This document shows, piece after piece, positions 40,235 to 55,096 of a stretch of DNA of 64,000 bases. This DNA comes from Candidatus Kapaibacterium sp. GTDB lineage: Bacteria > Bacteroidota > Ignavibacteria > Kapaibacteriales > JAEUSM01. The position numbers were made by a program, and so were the translations under genes. The stretch spans positions 81,200-145,199 of the forward strand of contig JAEUSM010000011.1 in NCBI GenBank assembly GCA_016788785.1, written 5' to 3'. The first letter of the stretch is position 1; each line of letters begins with the position of its first letter. Below the pieces are notes generated by a model. The model did no database searches. It saw only the letters and a program-made list of their open reading frames with translations, and was not told the DNA's origin.

Positions 40235-41344
40235 TTATTCTCCCTTTCGAACACCCAAATACTCATACAAATATTCTTCGTTTATCGAAAGTCCCGTTTC
40301 TTGTAATGCCACAATTGCACGTGCTTTTTCCTCTAACGGTCTGTCTTCATTCCAAACAATTGAAAATTTCCATGGGCATTCTTCTGCTTGGAAATCATAA
40401 TTATGTTGATAATCCTTAAGTAGTAATTGATTTATCAATCGTTCGCATCGCACCATATCAGCATAGTGAATATCACTCGAAATTCGTTGTTGAATTTCCA
40501 CTGCTGCTCGCGATCCACCATTTCTTGGTAATGCCATAGTATTTGCCTGACCTACCGTTGCTATAGCAATATCATTATCAAAAAGCTCAATCAATTGAGC
40601 AAATGCTTGAGCATTTCCACCAGCAATTTCATTTAATTTGTATTCAATATATTCACTTGTGGAGAGAAATCCCCGTTGTGGTGCCAGATGCAACGCTCGT
40701 TCAGCTTCCGATATTTCTTGTTCCGTTGCAGCATCTTTGCGGATAATTTGCACTAACCCCTTCAATAACTGAATATACCCGCCTATTTCGGTAATTGTCA
40801 TACGGCGAAGTAATTCTGTAAAGCAAATTGTCCGTAAAATTCCACCTCTTACTGGTAGCAATCGGTCTGTATCCACCAAATAATCTGGGCTATTGCTATC
40901 AATGATTCTGATTCGTTCGCACGGAATTGTATCCGCAAGAATATTCGCATCCATTGGAAGCATTTGCTCTGATTGAACTAACGGTACTTTTGTAAGAACA
41001 GGTTTTGGGATGTTGTTAGGATATTTCCAGTGTATATTCCAAATACTTACTCCAAAAAATGGCGTTTGTGCGTGAGATTCCAGCACAGTTTCGATTGCGT
41101 CGTTCAAACGATTCTGCGTCATTTCTGCAAACCGTGAATCTGTTGCATTGTTTGCGATAATTTGCCATGAACAACTTGTAACAGCCGTCGTACGAATATT
41201 ATACTGTCCCAAAAGCCGTGGATTTGACCACAAAATAGACATCGCAAATCGCAAATACGGACGTGGGTCACGGTGGTTTGGGTCATTCGCATCCAACAAA
41301 CGAAAATACGCTTGCAATTGCTCCGGTGAAATAGTGGCTATCAT
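40235..41344 (-). CDS. Mu gp29-like (DUF935) phage portal protein
   Basis: 369 residues from ATG 41344 (MIATISPEQLQAYFRLL). Characteristic order of DUF935: RFAMSILWSNPRLLGQYNIR then TTAVTSCSWQI near the N-terminus, a central FFGVSIWNIHWKY, DNDIAIATVGQANTM and a C-terminal RAIVALQETGLSINEEYLYEYLGV. The portal ring is the DNA entry point of the phage head. Mu gp29 is longer (about 512 residues), so this is a short version, though both ends look intact. It lies alone: genes on either side are host or cargo, and no terminase or capsid gene is adjacent. The related tail genes are 8 kb away on the same strand. Confidence 0.75.
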   Translation of the reverse strand: MIATISPEQLQAYFRLLDANDPNHRDPRPYLRFAMSILWSNPRLLGQYNIRTTAVTSCSWQIIANNATDSRFAEMTQNRLNDAIETVLESHAQTPFFGVSIWNIHWKYPNNIPKPVLTKVPLVQSEQMLPMDANILADTIPCERIRIIDSNSPDYLVDTDRLLPVRGGILRTICFTELLRRMTITEIGGYIQLLKGLVQIIRKDAATEQEISEAERALHLAPQRGFLSTSEYIEYKLNEIAGGNAQAFAQLIELFDNDIAIATVGQANTMALPRNGGSRAAVEIQQRISSDIHYADMVRCERLINQLLLKDYQHNYDFQAEECPWKFSIVWNEDRPLEEKARAIVALQETGLSINEEYLYEYLGVRKGE

Positions 41345-41579
41345 TTTATATCCAATAAGTAAAACCACAAAAATACACCAACCAGCAATATTCAATTGGC
41401 TATAAGGGGAGATGGGTATTCATTCTTTCTTCATCCTCTAAATCACGATGGGTTAAAACCCATCGCCGATCTGTTGGTATTTGGTCATTTTTTTCTTCAT
41501 TCTATTGCTCGTATCATTTTTTTTCGTAATTTAACACATTCTATCAATAACAAATCTCTTTTTTTGGCTGGAGTTTACA
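41345..41579. other. intergenic region with a hairpin, no gene
   Basis: Contains a short palindrome CGATGGGTTAAAACCCATCG (41447-41466) without a T run. No promoter match or RNA gene was recognised. Confidence 0.5.
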
Positions 41580-46476: not shown

Positions 46477-47364
46477 ATGGAAATATTAGGAAATAATCAG
46501 CACCAAATTTATTTTGGAGATGTTTTTGAAGCTTTATCAAAAGTACCAGATAATTCTGTAGATTTGATCTTTGCTGACCCACCCTATAATATTGGAAAAA
46601 ATTTTAGTGGGCTATTAGATAAATGGGATACTGAAGAAGACTATTTGAATTGGTGTTATGAGTGGTTGCAGGTATGTCTCCAAAAATTAAAACAAAACGG
46701 AAGCATGTATGTAATGACTGCAACACAATATATGCCGTATTTTGATATATTCCTGCGAGATAAAATTAACATTCTTTCTAGAATTGTTTGGTACTATGAT
46801 AGTTCAGGTGTACAGGCAAAAAAATACTATGGTTCCATGTACGAACCAATTTTGTATTGTGTAAAAGATAAATCAAATTATACATTTAATGCTTCAGATA
46901 TTTTAGTTGAGGCAAAAACTGGTGCAAAAAGAAAATTAATTGACTATCGAAAGGCAGTACCTAGTTTGTATAATTCGCAAAAAATACCCGGCAATGTATG
47001 GGAGTTTCCTAGAGTTCGTTACCGAATGGATGAATACGAACAACACCCATCACAAAAACCAATTGCATTACTAACAAGAATTATTACTGCAAGTTCAAAT
47101 GCAGGTGATGTGGTTTTAGATCCTTTTTCAGGCACGTTTACTACCTCTTTTGTTGCAAAAGAGTTAGATAGACATTCGATTGGGATTGAATTACAAGAAG
47201 AGTATGTTAAAATTGGGCTAAGAAGATTAAAACTATCTACTGAATTTAAGGGGGAGATACTCAAAAAAGATGTTCGTACATTTCAATCTGATACAATTGA
47301 TACAAAAAATTCGTTAAATTTATTTGAGGATTCAAATGGACCACTTGTTCACTACAAACATTAA
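46477..47364 (+). CDS. Type II adenine-specific DNA methyltransferase (YhdJ-like, beta class)
   Basis: 295 residues. Motif IV DPPY at 34-37 precedes motif I (DPFSGTFTTSF near 216), the beta-class order. The segments GNVWEFPRVRYRMDEYEQHPSQKP and IGIELQEEYVKIGLRRL are typical of the YhdJ group, whose known members methylate adenine in ATGCAT. The specificity here is therefore a guess from family. The following gene overlaps by 29 nt and is likely the cognate endonuclease, so together they form a type II restriction-modification system. Confidence 0.93.
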   Translation: MEILGNNQHQIYFGDVFEALSKVPDNSVDLIFADPPYNIGKNFSGLLDKWDTEEDYLNWCYEWLQVCLQKLKQNGSMYVMTATQYMPYFDIFLRDKINILSRIVWYYDSSGVQAKKYYGSMYEPILYCVKDKSNYTFNASDILVEAKTGAKRKLIDYRKAVPSLYNSQKIPGNVWEFPRVRYRMDEYEQHPSQKPIALLTRIITASSNAGDVVLDPFSGTFTTSFVAKELDRHSIGIELQEEYVKIGLRRLKLSTEFKGEILKKDVRTFQSDTIDTKNSLNLFEDSNGPLVHYKH

Positions 47365-48451
47365 ATCCATACTTTCCTCTGAATTTCAGGATAGATCAGA
47401 ACAAATTTTTGAAAAAAGTTTACTGATTCAATACATAAATTTCAAAACACGCTCTGCTAATAAGGATTCTAAAGCAAGGTCAAGTTTTGCTAATCTGTAT
47501 GCAATTTATGTTATAATTGAAGACTATGTTCATCAAGGTTTTGATACAAATCACCAATACTCCAATTATGAAGGAGCATTATTCAACAAACTTTTAGCTC
47601 GTCAAAGAGATCTACCCTTTGGAAATAAGTTGCAGAATCATGCACTTAATAATCGTGTTAATTCTGAATTTCAAAAGTTCTTTCCACATTCAGAATTTAT
47701 ACCTATCCTGAGAAATTTAGAAACAAATCGGTATTGGATTAATGAGAACCTACTACAAATCAACATCAATAAACATAATGTCAACATAGCAAAAACAATA
47801 CTACACATTATTGATGAGTACATTTTACAAAAGCAAAAATCATTTAATGATTTTATACAAACTTGTAAAGAAATTCAGGAAATTGGTAAGTTGACACCTA
47901 CAAGAATCAAAGATTTTATCGTCAATTTACTATCTCCACAAATTGACGCGAGACTGTTTGAAATCGTAAGTTACTCAATTCTAAAATATTTTTACTTCAA
48001 TCAACAAATTTTCTGGGGATTTGAAATCAATAAACTTACCAAAGAAAATTTGAAACTCTTTAAAACAGGTAGAACTAATGCAAACGATGGTGGGATTGAT
48101 TTTGTTATGATTCCACTTGGGAGATTCTTTCAAGTTACAGAAACACTTGATTTTAAAAAATATTTTTTAGACATTGATAAAGTGCAAAAATTTCCAATTT
48201 CATTTATCATCAAATCTTCAGAATCAATTGAAATCATTAGAGAAAGGATTAAAGAAAATGCCAATAAGACCTATTCAATTAGGTCAATTGTTGATAAGTA
48301 CATCAATTGCATTGAAGAAATCATTACTATACCTATTCTTTTAGAGCGATTTACAATAGCGGTAGACAATGGATATACTCAACACATTCTTGATGAAATT
48401 TTATTACAAAGCAAGGTTGAATTTAATTTGTTAGAAGAAGAAATCTTGTAA
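47336..48451 (+). CDS. Predicted type II restriction endonuclease
   Basis: 371 residues from ATG 47336, overlapping the methyltransferase end by 29 nt, which supports co-expression. No firm family match. A PD-(D/E)xK-like core is suggested by E209 in RLFEIVSYSILKY, D255 in the segment NANDGGIDFVMIPLG and the strand FFQVTET ten residues later, where Gln-x-Thr replaces the common Glu-x-Lys. Context is the main argument. If it pairs with a YhdJ-type methyltransferase the target would be ATGCAT (as for NsiI/AvaIII); such sites occur in the window, for example at 68-73. Confidence 0.75.
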   Translation: MDHLFTTNIKSILSSEFQDRSEQIFEKSLLIQYINFKTRSANKDSKARSSFANLYAIYVIIEDYVHQGFDTNHQYSNYEGALFNKLLARQRDLPFGNKLQNHALNNRVNSEFQKFFPHSEFIPILRNLETNRYWINENLLQININKHNVNIAKTILHIIDEYILQKQKSFNDFIQTCKEIQEIGKLTPTRIKDFIVNLLSPQIDARLFEIVSYSILKYFYFNQQIFWGFEINKLTKENLKLFKTGRTNANDGGIDFVMIPLGRFFQVTETLDFKKYFLDIDKVQKFPISFIIKSSESIEIIRERIKENANKTYSIRSIVDKYINCIEEIITIPILLERFTIAVDNGYTQHILDEILLQSKVEFNLLEEEIL

Positions 48452-48936: not shown

Positions 48937-49288
48937 TTTTTTTAAAGGGCGAAAAATCTTTCGCACTTTTCTGTTTTCCCTCTCTCTCAAGGGGCGAGGG
49001 AGTTATCGTGTTTTTGAATTCTACATAGGGCTTACACCCTATGCAGTGATAGAACGCCCCTTCAGGGCTTGACCGATAAACGGTAGAGACAGGGCATGCC
49101 CTGTCTCTACGAAAACATAGACATCTCCCTCTCCCCCACGAGGGAGAGGGCTGGGGTGAGGGGGCATTCTGAATAAAATGGGCAACCGTAAAAGTTGCCT
49201 CTACCTTTTTGAAGATTCCACCCCGCCCTACGGGCACCTCTCAAGAGGGGAACCAAAACAGCCACCCCACAAGAACGGAATTTTTTCC
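48937..49288. repeat. 352-nt block of dispersed repeats and palindromes
   Basis: No gene. Contains a weak terminator-like GGGCGAAA / TTTCGCAC (48947-48968) resembling 6053-6077, the phrase gcgagggagttatc (compare 6121-6134), a perfect 28-nt palindrome at 49083-49110, a ccctctccc...gagggagagg palindrome (49128-49150), and a phrase at 49212-49250 similar to 15764-15804. Confidence 0.75.
49083..49110. repeat. perfect 28-nt palindrome (GTAGAGAC type)
   Basis: GTAGAGACAGGGCA followed by its exact complement TGCCCTGTCTCTAC, with no loop. Same outer sequence as the palindrome at 44647-44689. Confidence 0.9.
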
Positions 49289-50371
49289 CTACAACGGATG
49301 GGTTTCGATGGTGCCGATGGCGGATTGGGTGTTGCAGCGGATTAGGTGGACGGTGCCAGAGGCGAATTTGCTGACGCCGTTTGGTAATAGTACCGTGATG
49401 TTGATGGTACGGTCGGCTGGGGTTGTAGAAAGAAGTGGAACGATGCACGTTCCTTGCAATGAATTGACGATGAGTTTGGGTGAGCCTGTGCCTGATGGGT
49501 CGAAGGTGTCACCTCTGTCGATGGTGGTGCCGTTGACGCTCAATGTAGCAGGTGAGGCATTATTAACTGGAAAGTTGCCACTATCGACTTGCGAAATTTC
49601 TACCCAAACGGAAACGAGATACACACCAATTGGAAATGCTCGACGGTTGCCAATGAGCTGTTGTGGCACTACCCATGTGTACGAACTTCCGCTGAAGCCA
49701 ATGCCAGTGAGGGTCAGTTGATAATACGGATGGGTGTGTTGCGAACGGAGTTCTTCCGCCAAATACACTTCGGTGAGTGAATCCTCGCGAACGGTTGCTT
49801 GCAAGCCGTCGATGGTGGTATTCAGCTCCACCGTATCGGAATTGGTATGCACTACATCGGCACGAAGCAATGACGACTCTAAGGTCAATTCGACAGTGGT
49901 GGATTGCTCCACTTCCAATTCGTCTGGGATGTATTGTTCGTTCACCAGTACCCAATGGATTTCTGTTTCATTGGGATAATACGTTGCAAAAATTCGTTCT
50001 TGCACCCATAAAGATGTACGGTGGTCGTTTCCATCAGCCACCAGCACCATTTGACCGGGAAAGTGCGAATCATCTGTTCGAACCCATTCATCAGTGCGAA
50101 CAGAATAAAACCCATTCTCCGCTTCATCGGTGGTATTATACAAAACAATATCACTCACTTGTAGATCAACGCCGTCGATGGTTTCAAGACCCATCCTGTC
50201 CATAGACTCGGTAATGATGACACGCACGATAGAGGTGGTCGCCGAAATGGTTTCTTCGCTAATTGAAGCTAATGCAACAAAAGAGGTAACGCCATTTCCT
50301 ATTGGTGGCAATGGTGCCGACAAATGACGTGGGGAGATAGTACGATCTGGAATAAGTGCATTCAACGGCAT
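49289..50371 (-). CDS. Phage tail-fibre-like protein
   Basis: About 360 residues from ATG 50371 (MPLNALIPDRTISPRHL). Residues 60-130 carry the common tail-fibre module with DGVDLQVSDIVLYNTTDEAENGFY and WVRTDD, and a following VLVADGNDHRTSLWV. The C-terminal half is beta-rich and Thr/Ser-rich, as expected of a fibre shaft or receptor-binding tip. It starts 1 nt after the stop of the upstream tail gene, so it is the last gene of the tail operon. G/C content is higher than in surrounding genes. It ends abutting a repeat block that separates it from the cargo genes. Confidence 0.75.
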   Translation of the reverse strand: MPLNALIPDRTISPRHLSAPLPPIGNGVTSFVALASISEETISATTSIVRVIITESMDRMGLETIDGVDLQVSDIVLYNTTDEAENGFYSVRTDEWVRTDDSHFPGQMVLVADGNDHRTSLWVQERIFATYYPNETEIHWVLVNEQYIPDELEVEQSTTVELTLESSLLRADVVHTNSDTVELNTTIDGLQATVREDSLTEVYLAEELRSQHTHPYYQLTLTGIGFSGSSYTWVVPQQLIGNRRAFPIGVYLVSVWVEISQVDSGNFPVNNASPATLSVNGTTIDRGDTFDPSGTGSPKLIVNSLQGTCIVPLLSTTPADRTINITVLLPNGVSKFASGTVHLIRCNTQSAIGTIETHPL

Positions 50372-50372
50372 T

Positions 50373-52202
50373 TTAAACTCCTTGCAAATAGATGATGAGT
50401 GATGATATTCCTGTTTCGAGTGAATGTTCGCACGAAAGAAGTACCGCTTTTGTAGCAACAAAACGTTCGGAAAGCGATTCTGAAAAACCCAACGATGTCA
50501 ATGAAAACTCTTCGAAACGATTGCCAACGTCTATAGGCAAAATTTGTGAAGTTTTGATATGCAAATGCGATGAATTACTTCGCAAAAATGCCGTTGCGAA
50601 TACTTGGCAGACTGCTACACCCAACCCAGTTTGTTTCCGAGTTTGTTGGAAATACTGCTCGAATGAATCTATGTCCCCAATTACAGTGGGGGCAGGTGAG
50701 GTGATGAGCGTATCTCCTGCAATGGCAATAGCGACTTGTTCGTGCAACCGCAGTGCGAACGTATCACCATCGATAGCTGGATGAGAGGCAAGTGCATAGA
50801 GAGTTCCATATAAAAAACCCTCACCAGCTTCCATCGTTGATGTTACATCAGCGTAGGTATACCCATCATCAGTGGCGATATCAGGATTAGACATTTCTGA
50901 TTGGAAACGATTCATTTTCCAAGGTTGTGGGTACATCGTCGGTGGAATTGGCTCAACGACTGGATAGCCTTTCATACGACGTCCACCGTAGAAGGGTTGC
51001 GTATGAAAGAACATCTCGATATCATAGTCTTGTTCAGATTCCGCACCACCAAATGAATGGAGAACTACTTCGGCATTGGACTGTTGCTCTGGTGAGTAGG
51101 TAACTCGAATAGAGCGAAGACTACCAGCACCAAGTTCCAATTCAAGCCCTTCTTGAAGAACCGCAGTTGGCATTTCCAACGATGGTGCTTTGAAAATAGG
51201 TGACCATTCAAAATGAAGCGACCCAGTAGCCCACACAAATCGTGAGTGAAATGTACAACCCATTTGTTCAGTAAGTCGACGCAAAAAATCGTAGAACGTG
51301 CTAAACCGCTGAACTCCATTTTCGTCGTAGAGCATACCACCAACAATGGACGCGCCATCGTGCGGAGGTTTCGTTACTTTCCCAACGAAGAGTGGATTTG
51401 TGCATACATCACCGTGTGACCGAAGTGAGGAAAACTCTGAATAAAAAAGATTAACAATTTCCCCTTCCCAAGGATAGTCGCTTGGAACAACAGATGCTGA
51501 TTCTAAAAATAGCATTTTCTGAAGCATGATTTCCATCAAGGTGCATCGAGAATTGAGATAGTCATTGAATGAACATAAATGTGCTTTTATATCCCATGTT
51601 CTGTTGTCCGTATGCAAAGGTGCTTTGGGTCCTCCGAATTCGAAATAACCATTCGTTGCTAAAGAATTTGTATAGAACAGAGAGTACAGTCGATCGAACG
51701 AAGTATATGTCAATTCGTCTAGGTCTTCAGTCAATGAAACTGCTTCTGCCAAATAGCGTACGATGTCAACAAAAACAATATCCATCACTTCATCCCCTTG
51801 CTCATTGAAACGAATGGTGCTTGTTGGAACACGTTTCATCACCCCACAAAACAATGCATCGGAATGCCAGAAAGTATACGGTGGTGTAACAGAAACACTG
51901 CAACGAATTACTACAACAAAAGGCAATGTATTCACTGGACTTTCCAAACATCGATTGCGAAAAAGTGCTGGAGCATTCGTAAGATTTATGGTCATTGTTA
52001 ACGATGAAGTTTCAGAAAACCCATACGGAATAGTATCAAATCCTTTTGAAATAGTTCCACCGGAAAGCAATACATTCTCAGGTAATTCTTGTAAACCCGG
52101 AAATGGTTGTGGAAGATCGAATGCAGATGCACGAGGATAAAAACTACAATGATATGCTCGACCAGAATCAGTGACAAATTCTTTCCAAAATATAGGATTC
52201 AT
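50373..52202 (-). CDS. Large phage tail protein, unassigned
   Basis: About 609 residues from ATG 52202 (MNPIFWKEFV). No named domain recognised. The N-terminal 100 residues are beta-rich (SSLTMTINLTNAPALF), the middle contains Cys/aromatic-rich segments (LMEIMLQKMLFLESASV, LRRLTEQMGCTFHSRFVWATG) and the C-terminus returns to strands. Its position after tape measure and a 146-residue protein and before the fibre gene, with 4-nt and 1-nt junctions, suggests a tail-tip or baseplate protein. The start overlaps the preceding gene's stop (ATGA, 52199-52202). Confidence 0.75.
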   Translation of the reverse strand: MNPIFWKEFVTDSGRAYHCSFYPRASAFDLPQPFPGLQELPENVLLSGGTISKGFDTIPYGFSETSSLTMTINLTNAPALFRNRCLESPVNTLPFVVVIRCSVSVTPPYTFWHSDALFCGVMKRVPTSTIRFNEQGDEVMDIVFVDIVRYLAEAVSLTEDLDELTYTSFDRLYSLFYTNSLATNGYFEFGGPKAPLHTDNRTWDIKAHLCSFNDYLNSRCTLMEIMLQKMLFLESASVVPSDYPWEGEIVNLFYSEFSSLRSHGDVCTNPLFVGKVTKPPHDGASIVGGMLYDENGVQRFSTFYDFLRRLTEQMGCTFHSRFVWATGSLHFEWSPIFKAPSLEMPTAVLQEGLELELGAGSLRSIRVTYSPEQQSNAEVVLHSFGGAESEQDYDIEMFFHTQPFYGGRRMKGYPVVEPIPPTMYPQPWKMNRFQSEMSNPDIATDDGYTYADVTSTMEAGEGFLYGTLYALASHPAIDGDTFALRLHEQVAIAIAGDTLITSPAPTVIGDIDSFEQYFQQTRKQTGLGVAVCQVFATAFLRSNSSHLHIKTSQILPIDVGNRFEEFSLTSLGFSESLSERFVATKAVLLSCEHSLETGISSLIIYLQGV

Positions 52203-52639
52203 TCTTGCACCTCTTGTGATTGTAATTGCAGTATCAATTGTTCTTTCCCAATTTCCCACATAGTTTCTACAGCAAGTGAATCAATAATCACCCATACTCC
52301 AGTTGTCAATGCAGTGGAGGGGAAATTCTCCTCATCACTCCATCGAGGAAATGTGTCGTCATCGTGTTGAAGTTTCAGAAAAGGAGCTGACATCATAGAC
52401 ACAACTGCACCATATACTGACTCGGTGGAATATCCAGTCGTACTGTTTGTAAGGTAGGGGATAGTATGTACTTCGTACACTGTTCGAATTCGCCTTGACT
52501 GCTCTTGCACACCTCCTACGTATTGTTGTTTCGACCCAACAAATTGTAACGATGGTTTTATTCCGATAATTGGTATTACTATCATTGTATAGGGTGATGG
52601 TGAATTTTTTTCTGTGAATGCCGAGAGTTTTATTGTCAT
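52199..52639 (-). CDS. Phage tail-module protein, 146 residues
   Basis: Beta-rich protein with no recognised family (TMIVIPIIGIKPSLQFVG, VYEVHTIPYLT, STALTTGVWVIID). Overlaps both neighbours by 4 nt (52636-52639 and 52199-52202), which strongly argues for a real, translationally coupled gene. In siphovirus tails the slot between tape measure and tip proteins usually encodes a distal-tail-type or minor tail protein; that is inference from position. Confidence 0.75.
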   Translation of the reverse strand: MTIKLSAFTEKNSPSPYTMIVIPIIGIKPSLQFVGSKQQYVGGVQEQSRRIRTVYEVHTIPYLTNSTTGYSTESVYGAVVSMMSAPFLKLQHDDDTFPRWSDEENFPSTALTTGVWVIIDSLAVETMWEIGKEQLILQLQSQEVQE

Positions 52640-53556
52640 GATAATACCACCTTTCGCCGAAGTTGTTTGTCAATGATAGTTTGTAATTCATTTCCAGTTG
52701 CACGAAGCGTACCTGAGACCGTAATCGTATTGTGAACAGAGGTGGTTCTTGAATGTAATTTATCTATCAATTGCTCCATTTTTTCAAGGAGAACCGGTGG
52801 CGTTTGCGAGGGAGTATTCGTAAAAGACTGTGGGATTTTTCCCGCATTGAGCTGTTGCAATTCGGGCAAAAATGCTTTAGTTGATTGAGCATTCATTACA
52901 AATTCTTGCCCTAATTCGTTGATACGAATAAATTGTTCACCGCCTCTAACCAATCCACCTTCTTTGAATCCTGCAGCTGATTTGGCAAGTGCGACTAATC
53001 CTTTGAAGGTGGCAGTGAGTGCAATTGCTGATGCTAACCCTGCTGAGCCAAAGGAGAGTGCGTTTGCAGGATTGGGACTTGCTAATTGCACACCAGTTAT
53101 TTGTGCTACTATGACTGGCACTAATGCATCGAGTGCTTGAAGTGCTGTACCGACGAGAATTTTGGATGTACTTTCCACAAACGATTTTCCTTCTGCGAGT
53201 ACTCCTGCCATAGTAGACACTAAGGATGTTCCCAACGATGCAACTATTTTTTCGGAAGTAGAACTGAGAGAAAGTAACTGTTTTTCTTGTTGTTTTAGAG
53301 AAGTTTGTAATGCTGAACCCATCGACTGAACGAATGTTTGTACTTCTGTTTTTCTTCGGTTATTTCTATTTTGAGAAGCATTTTCTTCCGAAGCATAGAA
53401 CTGCTGTTGCATTTTTAGATAGGCATCATAATTCGTTGCTATCTGTTGCTGTTGTTGTTGCAATGAGTTTTTGAGTACTGTTGCCATCTTCTCATTCATT
53501 TGAGCAAACGCTTGAGAAACAGTTGATGTTTGTTGTAAAAATTCAGTTGGTTTCAT
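52636..53556 (-). CDS. Phage tail tape-measure-like protein
   Basis: 306 residues: an N-terminal Gln-rich coiled coil (NSLQQQQQQIATNYDAY), a hydrophobic middle (LVPVIVAQITGV, GLASAIALTATFKGLVALA), then a segment FKEGGLVRGGEQFIRINELGQEFVMNA, which is typical near the C-terminus of tape measure proteins. Tape measures set tail length; 306 residues would predict a very short tail (roughly 0.15 nm per residue, about 45 nm, from the general rule). Its ATG is overlapped by the end of the frameshift ORF (53543-53836). Confidence 0.8.
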   Translation of the reverse strand: MKPTEFLQQTSTVSQAFAQMNEKMATVLKNSLQQQQQQIATNYDAYLKMQQQFYASEENASQNRNNRRKTEVQTFVQSMGSALQTSLKQQEKQLLSLSSTSEKIVASLGTSLVSTMAGVLAEGKSFVESTSKILVGTALQALDALVPVIVAQITGVQLASPNPANALSFGSAGLASAIALTATFKGLVALAKSAAGFKEGGLVRGGEQFIRINELGQEFVMNAQSTKAFLPELQQLNAGKIPQSFTNTPSQTPPVLLEKMEQLIDKLHSRTTSVHNTITVSGTLRATGNELQTIIDKQLRRKVVLS

Positions 53557-53836
53557 TGTGATGATAATATAGTGAAAATGCTGATGAAAATGCTACCATT
53601 CGGTGAACTTCATCGTATGGTTGTTGTGTATATAATTGTTGTGCTAATTGATAATTCCCATTCGTTAGTAGATAGCAACTCCAAAACAGCCTTTCCTCTG
53701 GTGGAATGGTTGTAGTAAAAGAATTTTCTTGGGCAATACCTATTCTAAAACAATCCCATAGTTGGTAGCGGATACATCTTGCCTCACGATGGTAAAAATC
53801 GTCGACGAAAAAATTCCAAATATTGCTCCAATCTTT
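53543..53836 (-). CDS. Frameshift extension of the tail assembly chaperone (no start of its own)
   Basis: The minus strand is open in this frame from 53836 (after a TAG) to a TGA at 53545-53543, encoding about 97 residues with plausible composition (FFVDDFYHREARCIRYQLWD, PPEERLFWSCYLLTNGNY). Its only ATG lies 18 residues before the end, so it can hardly be translated alone. It overlaps the 3' end of the chaperone gene (53784-54269) and the first 14 nt of the tape measure gene. At a run of six T (53813-53808, codons TTT TTT of the chaperone), slipping back by two nucleotides keeps TTT pairing and moves into this frame, adding about 88 residues to give a fusion near 242 residues. Tail assembly chaperones of lambda use -1 and of Mu use -2 shifting at this genome position. 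Confidence 0.75.
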   Translation of the reverse strand, partial: KDWSNIWNFFVDDFYHREARCIRYQLWDCFRIGIAQENSFTTTIPPEERLFWSCYLLTNGNYQLAQQLYTQQPYDEVHRMVAFSSAFSLYYHHNETN

Positions 53837-54269
53837 CTAAGGGGAACGTCTGCCAAAATGTATGTTCATAACTTGAGTACACAGCTTCATATAGTTCTTG
53901 AGGAAATTGAGAAGTGTCAATAGTACTTCGTAGTAAGTCAATCGCTCTTCGAATTCGCTGTTCATTGTGAAGCATCGGCAATGGAGGATTTTTGAGCATT
54001 CGAAACAAGGTCGGATTTTCAGCCAAAAGTTCTGTGAGTGCTTGTTGTGAGATTTGACTATCTGAAGTGCCATGTATAGTTTTCATCAACGTAGCAAACG
54101 ATGGATGTTCTGTCATCAAGGCAAGCATATCTGCATCGGTACTTGTATTGCTGTAATCCTGCAACAATGGCAGTACTTCGTTTCGTAAAGAAAGTGTGAT
54201 GGTTTTCGGTTGGAGCGTATAGTGATTTTCCCCCCATTGGAGGGGAATTTGTATTTGAGTTGTATTCAT
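53784..54269 (-). CDS. Phage tail assembly chaperone (gpG-like)
   Basis: 161 residues, largely helical after a short beta start (IQIPLQWGENHYTLQPKTITLS). No sequence family recognised with certainty; the assignment rests on position just before the tape measure gene, its size, and the frameshift ORF that continues from its 3' end. Such chaperones coat the tape measure protein while the tail tube polymerises. The unshifted end is FFRRRFLPS. Preceded by a region of DnaA-box-like sequence. Confidence 0.7.
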   Translation of the reverse strand: MNTTQIQIPLQWGENHYTLQPKTITLSLRNEVLPLLQDYSNTSTDADMLALMTEHPSFATLMKTIHGTSDSQISQQALTELLAENPTLFRMLKNPPLPMLHNEQRIRRAIDLLRSTIDTSQFPQELYEAVYSSYEHTFWQTFPLERLEQYLEFFRRRFLPS

Positions 54270-54272
54270 AAT

Positions 54273-54342
54273 TGTTGATAAAATGTGGATAACTTAGCTA
54301 TTTTGTGGATAATATAGTGGATAACTGCCAATGTTATCCACA
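54273..54342. promoter_or_regulatory. cluster of DnaA-box sequences
   Basis: Between two tail genes lie TGTGGATAA (54284-54292), TGTGGATAA (54304-54312) and TTATCCACA (54334-54342), all perfect DnaA boxes, plus one-mismatch boxes TGTTGATAA (54273-54281) and AGTGGATAA (54316-54324). Five in 70 nt. The spacing of the first three starts is 11 and 20 nt. Confidence 0.75.
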
Positions 54343-54358
54343 ATATGACCGAAAAATC

Positions 54359-55009
54359 CTATTCTTCTGCATAGGTGATAAACTCAATTGCAGTATGTCT
54401 TTTTGCGACAATTGATAGTGAAGATGACGCTTCACACCCCTCAACCACCGGTAAAGCTGTAGCAGGAATAGCAAGGGTATTCGATAGTTTCAGAAGTGAA
54501 ATCGAAGGTGTCAATTTGACAAATTCACCTCCTTGAACGGTATAATTGAGCGTAGAAGATTTTAACAATCCGATACAAGCTCGAATATAGTAAGAACCAG
54601 CACCAGTAAATCCACCAGCATTTGCCTTCGAACCTCGATAGAGTAACAAAACCATCGAATCTGAGGCAATAGAGGGAGTATGTAGTTTCACACCATTTTC
54701 GAAGGAGATACTGTCTCTTTTATTCGGCAAATCTTCTTCGTCAATTGCTAAGGCTTGGAAAAATTGCAGATGGGTTTGTGAAACAGTCACACTTTCAATT
54801 GAGGCTTCATTTGCTTGAAGTTGTGGTTGGATTATTTGGTCAAATGAAACTCCGTCGGTATCATTTGACGCGGAAAGTGATGTTATGGCACTCCATGTAT
54901 CGGTATTGCTGATGGCATTTGCAACGGTACGATATTGCCATTGACTGCCGTTATAACGAACATTATAGAGTTTAGAGGAATTTCCTCCTCCGAATAGAAC
55001 TGATTGCAT
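54359..55009 (-). CDS. Candidate major tail (tube) protein
   Basis: About 216 residues from ATG 55009 (MQSVLFGGGNSSKLYNVRY). A clear Shine-Dalgarno AAGGAG lies 8 nt upstream, unusual in this window and consistent with phage origin. Beta-rich, with Ser/Thr/Gly-rich loops; no family recognised. As the first gene of the tail operon, ahead of the chaperone and tape measure genes, it has the slot of a major tail protein. Inference from synteny only. Confidence 0.6.
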   Translation of the reverse strand: MQSVLFGGGNSSKLYNVRYNGSQWQYRTVANAISNTDTWSAITSLSASNDTDGVSFDQIIQPQLQANEASIESVTVSQTHLQFFQALAIDEEDLPNKRDSISFENGVKLHTPSIASDSMVLLLYRGSKANAGGFTGAGSYYIRACIGLLKSSTLNYTVQGGEFVKLTPSISLLKLSNTLAIPATALPVVEGCEASSSLSIVAKRHTAIEFITYAEE

Positions 55010-55096
55010 GGTGACTCCTTTTGTAGAAAATAGTTTCCACAAAAATAGAAGTCAGTTGTTATCAGTTTTGGCTATTAGTGTTTGAGAACGAAAAGT

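Follow-up and report, generated by a model that had tools for sequence, protein, structure and literature searches.

A probable +1 frameshift at UUU_CGU in a putative tail assembly chaperone gene of a Kapaibacterium genome

Background

The frameshift in tail assembly chaperone genes is a conserved feature, as illustrated by lambda G/GT (Xu et al. 2004, as cited in PMC5009743), and shifts by -1, -2 or +1 are known in these genes, Mu using -2 (PMC5009743). The window analyzed here, a stretch of 64,000 nucleotides from a Candidatus Kapaibacterium sp. assembly, carries on its minus strand a small gene, G, whose end overlaps an open frame, T, that lacks a usable start and runs into a tape-measure gene. 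The preliminary description proposed that T is reached by a -2 shift of the Mu kind on a run of six T in the overlap. The question raised by this locus is whether T is translated, and if so by which shift.

Results

G (53784-54269, minus strand as all the tail-module features below) encodes a predicted zero-frame product of 161 amino acids and 18.9 kDa and was identified by its open reading frame, its position and its homology to 18 G proteins. T (53543-53836) is an open frame of 97 codons supported by T-domain homology, and the first ATG, GTG or TTG in it is an ATG some 19 codons from the end. It shares 53 nt with the 3' end of G and 14 nt with the beginning of the tape-measure gene, and its frame relative to G is +1 or, equivalently, -2. 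The zero-frame codons of the overlap are GAA TTT TTT CGT CGA CGA TTT TTA CCA TCG TGA, and the same stretch read in the T frame is AAT TTT TTC GTC GAC GAT TTT TAC. The T6 run (53808-53813) lies within this overlap and belongs to the candidate shift site UUU_UUU_CGU (53805-53813), formed by UUU at 53811-53813, UUU at 53808-53810 and CGU at 53805-53807; the UGA stop of G (53784-53786) is seven codons downstream of the UUU_CGU pair. After a shift, the translated T part would extend from 53806 to 53546, with the T stop at 53543-53545, and the predicted GT fusion would have 241 amino acids and 28.6 kDa. The predicted junction peptides are LEQYLEFFVDDFYHR (2019.937 Da) for a +1 shift and LEQYLEFFFVDDFYHR (2167.005 Da) for a -2 shift. 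All elements of the arrangement put forward in the preliminary description (chaperone-like G, overlapping T, tape-measure gene and T6) were found again, and the stop that it placed 23 or so codons after a -1 shift is met after about 21.

The gene preceding G (54359-55042, 227 amino acids) probably encodes the major tail (tube) protein, an assignment made by position only, since it matches neither Pfam nor PHROG. On the other side lies a short tape-measure-like protein of 306 amino acids (52636-53556), recognized by homology to the tape measures of the relatives described below. It is followed by an ORF of 146 amino acids (52199-52639), placed in the module by position, with no assigned function and no family match, and by one of 628 amino acids (50373-52259) whose position suggests that it is perhaps a hub or tail-tip protein. 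The latter has no relative in viral contigs or phages, and 395 genomes of the phylum gave one doubtful match with internal stops. The last ORF (49289-50461, 390 amino acids) has a virion-protein-like stretch near residues 79-154 (phrog_17264, 1.9e-9) and weaker matches also to head-decoration and tail-fibre families. Just past the end of the module, on the plus strand (49024-49069), there is an Acido-Lenti-1 RNA (RF01687, 37.6 bits for a gathering score of 37).

Comparison of the window proteins with the order, the phylum, IMG/VR and phage records gave no usable direct homologues and at most weak tape-measure matches, and no relatives appeared among the deposited phages searched. The relatives were reached through the Portal_Mu family, by way of Mu-like elements within the order. 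Their flanks show the same gene order of tube, G, T and tape measure, and the set of loci was widened with GT-fusion profiles and terminase alignments. Overlapping frame pairs were picked by G/T protein homology and geometry, blind to the slip-site codons; a gene-overlap scan that produced many false pairs was superseded by these homology-filtered scans. The resulting set comprised 19 distinct loci with T in the +1 frame, namely the window and 18 other phage or prophage loci. Where a terminase locus came from a genome record with a named host, this was in most cases one of the Ignavibacteria or a Kapabacteria-type bacterium; single MAGs carried the labels Hydrogenedentota and Parcubacteria, and the remaining loci were unbinned viral contigs. 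Mu-type portal proteins were present in 61 of the 123 genomes of the order, many of them as a single open frame of about 340-395 amino acids in family f6.

Past the stop of G, T stayed open in 37 of 5000 dinucleotide shuffles. Since openness alone thus reaches only p about 0.007, the decision comes from homology: an HMM of 17 other T domains, with the window left out, matched the window T with 19.2 bits (E 1.4e-7 in a two-sequence search), and homologous T frames occupy the same place in the 18 other loci. On these grounds the T frame is coding. In the alignment of the 18 G homologues, M1, W139 and F154 were invariant, and across 18 aligned GT fusions the only invariant columns were the Phe of the slip site and a Trp 15 residues before it. 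Folded as separate AlphaFold models, G (pLDDT 82.9) showed a beta hairpin followed by helices and T (pLDDT 83.8) was helical. Neither had a family match in Pfam or PHROG. The best Foldseek fold matches were uncharacterised phage proteins (2.2e-5 and 6.8e-5), chaperone-named ones appearing only at E above 1, and for T there was no Foldseek match. Because no named chaperone was matched significantly, the chaperone name is based on position, on how the frames are arranged and on the tape measure. In the window and in its relatives, the gene stands between the tube gene (so named by position only) and the tape measure, T ends near the tape-measure start, and T is open, conserved, without a start of its own and placed so that a shift near the end of G would reach it. 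We consider it likely that G and T are parts of a single gene for a tail assembly chaperone, of the lambda G/GT kind, and that this gene shifts by +1 at UUU_CGU, both parts of the statement being taken together.

The sequences themselves show the two frames and how these are conserved, as well as the motif and where it lies. At the homologous protein position, all 19 +1-frame loci carry a zero-frame UUU_CGN, which is expected in about 1% of such overlaps. The sites are UCC_UUU_CGA in L035, L135, L140 and L226, UCC_UUU_CGU in L101 and L147, UCC_UUU_CGC in L105, UUU_UUU_CGU in the window, L138 and L163, UUU_UUU_CGA in L044, UUU_UUU_CGC in L103, L156 and L171, CGA_UUU_CGA in L037, UAC_UUU_CGC in L075, CUU_UUU_CGU in L104, CGG_UUU_CGC in L120 and AUU_UUU_CGU in L164. 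One of them, L226, was found by a profile of the other 18 after the pattern had been set, and fits it. Among 2452 codon pairs of G lying outside the overlaps in the first 18 loci, UUU_CGN was found a single time, and this is probably the additional UUU_CGA of the window G. Given a conserved Phe-Arg, the codon choice in those 18 loci has a p of about 6e-8, a naive value that ignores shared ancestry. These data leave little doubt that T would be expressed by a frameshift at this site.

Two explanations place the event in the T6 run itself. One is a sequencing or assembly error, the true gene being continuous with five T; removal of one T would indeed join the frames, but the two-frame arrangement recurs in 19 separate sequences, 12 of them without the T6 homopolymer, and the chance of such an error is negligible. 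The other is transcriptional slippage on T6 giving mixed mRNAs, some of which join G to T. Although T6 is a homopolymer run, the same 12 of 19 homologues lack it and a run of six T is short for the polymerase to slip on efficiently, so we regard this as very improbable. Conservation in homologous tail modules, proposed as a check in the preliminary description, thus holds for the overlap arrangement, found in 18 other loci, and fails for the T run; in none of the +1 homologues is the T frame broken.

The choice between +1 and -2 depends on which re-pairing the sites allow. Re-pairing of tRNA-Phe by +1, from UUU to UUC, is possible in all 19 loci, the C after UUU being kept in every one, and it gives a better match to the tRNA-Phe anticodon (argument of Firth et al. 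2012, PMC3498833). A -2 slippage as in Mu would instead move the P-site tRNA-Phe two bases back in the T run, so that T is read with one extra Phe. It is documented for Mu at CGG_GGG_CGA (PMC5009743), and in the window T6 offers full re-pairing. For a -2 shift, the preceding codon has to end in UU, as it does in nine of the 19 loci (seven UUU_UUU, one CUU_UUU and one AUU_UUU), whereas the other ten have UCC, CGA, UAC or CGG before UUU at the same protein position, and there tRNA-Phe two bases back would face CCU, GAU, ACU or GGU. A slippery run permitting -2, as in Mu, is therefore present in the window and absent from ten of the 19 homologues, which makes -2 slippage unlikely. Since the window's own T6 also permits -2, its direction rests on the relatives. 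Given a frameshift at this site, a +1 direction is very likely; the frameshift and its place as proposed in the preliminary description are upheld by the 19 loci, and the -2 direction is not.

No conserved RNA structure was detected across 18 loci (mean folding z -0.34 downstream and -0.07 upstream), the folding of the window (z = 0.83) was no stronger than that of shuffles, and inspection of the aligned contexts by eye revealed no conserved Shine-Dalgarno-like stimulator. As in the UUU_CGN +1 class, the overlapping +1 frame has the conserved zero-frame motif at its 5' end, and conserved RNA structure is absent. Because no RNA stimulator is apparent, the whole signal seems to be the four-base slip plus the A-site Arg codon, often with UCC or UUU before. 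These two codons each precede UUU in 7 of the 19 sites, and UCC makes up 0.45% of codons in G bodies (p about 2e-12 for the E-site enrichment, a naive value that ignores shared ancestry). The UCC_UUU_CGN sites are scattered, with no clustering, on a poorly resolved G+T tree, and sister pairs differ before UUU (CUU in L104 vs UCC in L105, UCC in L135 vs UUU in L138, UAC in L075 vs UCC in L101), which suggests that UCC has been gained repeatedly. The absence of CGG from the A site in all 19 loci is not significant, CGG being rare, and a slow A-site codon is not evident, since among the Arg codons CGU is the most frequent one here (15.0 per 1000). Host genes show only weak avoidance of UUU_CGN (49 observed vs 63.5 expected). 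A second in-frame UUU_CGA lies inside the window G (54005-54000, minus strand), where a +1 shift reaches a stop before T; UUU_CGN alone may thus be leaky or need context.

Other relatives have T in the -1 frame, and in these a U_UUU_UUN heptamer occupies the corresponding position in the protein: GAU_UUU_UUU_A (L093 and L118), GGU_UUU_UUC (L102), GAU_UUU_UUC (L214) and CUU_UUU_UUC (L230). A further one, L108, has an extra stop in T and was treated as decayed. The signal follows the direction needed, as the -1 relatives carry the heptamer and the +1 loci UUU_CGN, and the predicted shift direction has switched within the chaperone family. The poor resolution of the G+T tree does not allow the switches to be counted. 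Separately, near-alike copies of the -1 type chaperone occur on several contigs of one genus (L093, L108, L118, L231 and L242), which looks like a spreading and decaying prophage family.

Residues from about 90 to 242 of the window tape measure match the C-terminal part of relatives of about 1500-1600 amino acids (E 2.3e-15 with L137 and 4.3e-12 with L044), the match being confined to about 160 residues near their C-terminus; both PHROG (5.3e-33) and Pfam PhageMin_Tail identify the L044 protein as a tape measure. A tape measure of 306 amino acids would predict a very short tail. The Mu-type portal protein of the window (40235-41395, minus strand, 386 amino acids, Pfam Portal_Mu 1.3e-27) adjoins recA, and its closest relatives fall in the same phage group. 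Between the portal and the tail module (46477-48451) there is a DNA methyltransferase gene followed by a likely restriction partner gene. No terminase occurs in the window, and the only one in the genome is on another contig (L246, C13:20193-22613; Terminase_3 1.3e-49), beside three small ORFs, at least one of which resembles a connector-region ORF of the relatives. The only capsid gene (L248, C1:24089-26150; 1e-76 to L035) is accompanied by a scaffold-like ORF, a small ORF and an amidase-like (lysis-like) ORF. Particle genes of one phage type are thus found at four separate places, the portal beside recA, the tail module (49289-55042), the capsid and the terminase, and they are intact, complementary, single-copy by these searches and embedded among host genes. 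On account of the short tape measure and of this split but complementary set, the particle genes may be gene-transfer-agent-like, a reading to which we give an even chance, the competing one being scattered phage remnants rather than a domesticated gene transfer agent.

The same data bear on whether T is expressed at all. It could be made as a separate protein or not made, the module being a decaying remnant, and the tape measure of 306 amino acids vs about 1500 in the relatives, together with the location of head and packaging genes elsewhere, points that way. However, the first start codon of T comes only close to its end, T retains detectable homology and a confident predicted fold, and G, T, the slip site and all the neighbouring ORFs are intact, which makes this explanation improbable as well. 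The module might no longer be functional, given the strong shortening of its tape measure.

Discussion

Under +1 frameshifting at UUU_CGU, most ribosomes would end at the UGA and yield G (161 amino acids). In a minority, the P-site tRNA-Phe, paired with the UUU at 53808-53810 while CGU stands in the A site, would slip one base forward onto UUC; GUC, from 53806, would be the next codon, and translation would go on in T to give GT (241 amino acids). The predicted role of G is to coat the tape measure, and that of the T part is to bring in the tube protein. We infer the slippage, its direction and its rate, as well as these roles of G and GT, from the features described above.

If true, this adds a prokaryotic branch to the UUU_CGN +1 class, described in the papers found for eukaryotic systems, and the about 20 divergent natural sites provide a series for weighing the E-, P- and A-site codons. 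One gene family would move between -1 (U_UUU_UUN) and +1 (UUU_CGN) at the same protein position, and for this reason it is the product, not the mechanism, that appears to be kept. Gene finders that seek only -1 heptamers will overlook such T domains.

Among known systems, the locus resembles lambda G/GT in having a small gene just before the tape measure, an overlapping T without a start and a low-level shift predicted to yield G and GT; however, lambda and most phages shift by -1, while here the shift would be +1 on UUU_CGN, and there is no sequence family match. With Mu gp41 (locus L091) it shares the relative frame of T, an Arg codon after the slippery codon (CGA in CGG_GGG_CGA) and Mu-type portals, but the G run of Mu supports -2 re-pairing, whereas the site here, UUU_CGN, favours +1, and the T run is not maintained among the homologues. 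In phage structural genes, +1 shifting is also found in Listeria phage PSA (PMC5009743), although there it concerns capsid and tail-shaft genes, a Pro codon (CCC) and a pseudoknot or stop codon as stimulator, unlike here. The tail gene of the archaeal virus HSTV-2 (PMC5009743, PMC8211752) probably shifts by +1, which makes it a G-T case with the same direction in an archaeal host. Tail-chaperone frameshifting is therefore known, with +1 probably included. In the open-access papers searched, we met no description of UUU_CGN as a signal in tail genes of phages, which is no proof of novelty.

The closest parallels to the signal are eukaryotic, UUU_Ynn being also shift-prone in bacteria. UCC_UUU_CGU of influenza A PA-X shifts by +1 according to mass spectrometry, and there UCC raises frameshifting (PMC3498833); UUU_CGN is the +1 signal of plant amalgaviruses (PMC5052127) and UCC_UUU_CGG that of vertebrate PLEKHM2 (PMC12551717). 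These share with our loci the slip codon, the A-site codon box, often UCC, and the lack of an evident need for an RNA stimulator, but they involve eukaryotic ribosomes and unrelated genes, whereas here a structural chaperone would be translated by bacterial ribosomes; the likeness is thus best viewed as convergent. The cassette of the PA-X type, UCC_UUU_CGN, occurs at 7 of the 19 sites, scattered over the tree. We tentatively propose, as an idea with somewhat less than an even chance of being right, that UCC_UUU_CGN is a minimal stimulator-free +1 cassette that works on both kinds of ribosome and was reached independently by bacterial phages and by eukaryotic viruses and genes, here serving a domesticated, gene-transfer-agent-like, short-tailed particle with its genes at four chromosomal places.
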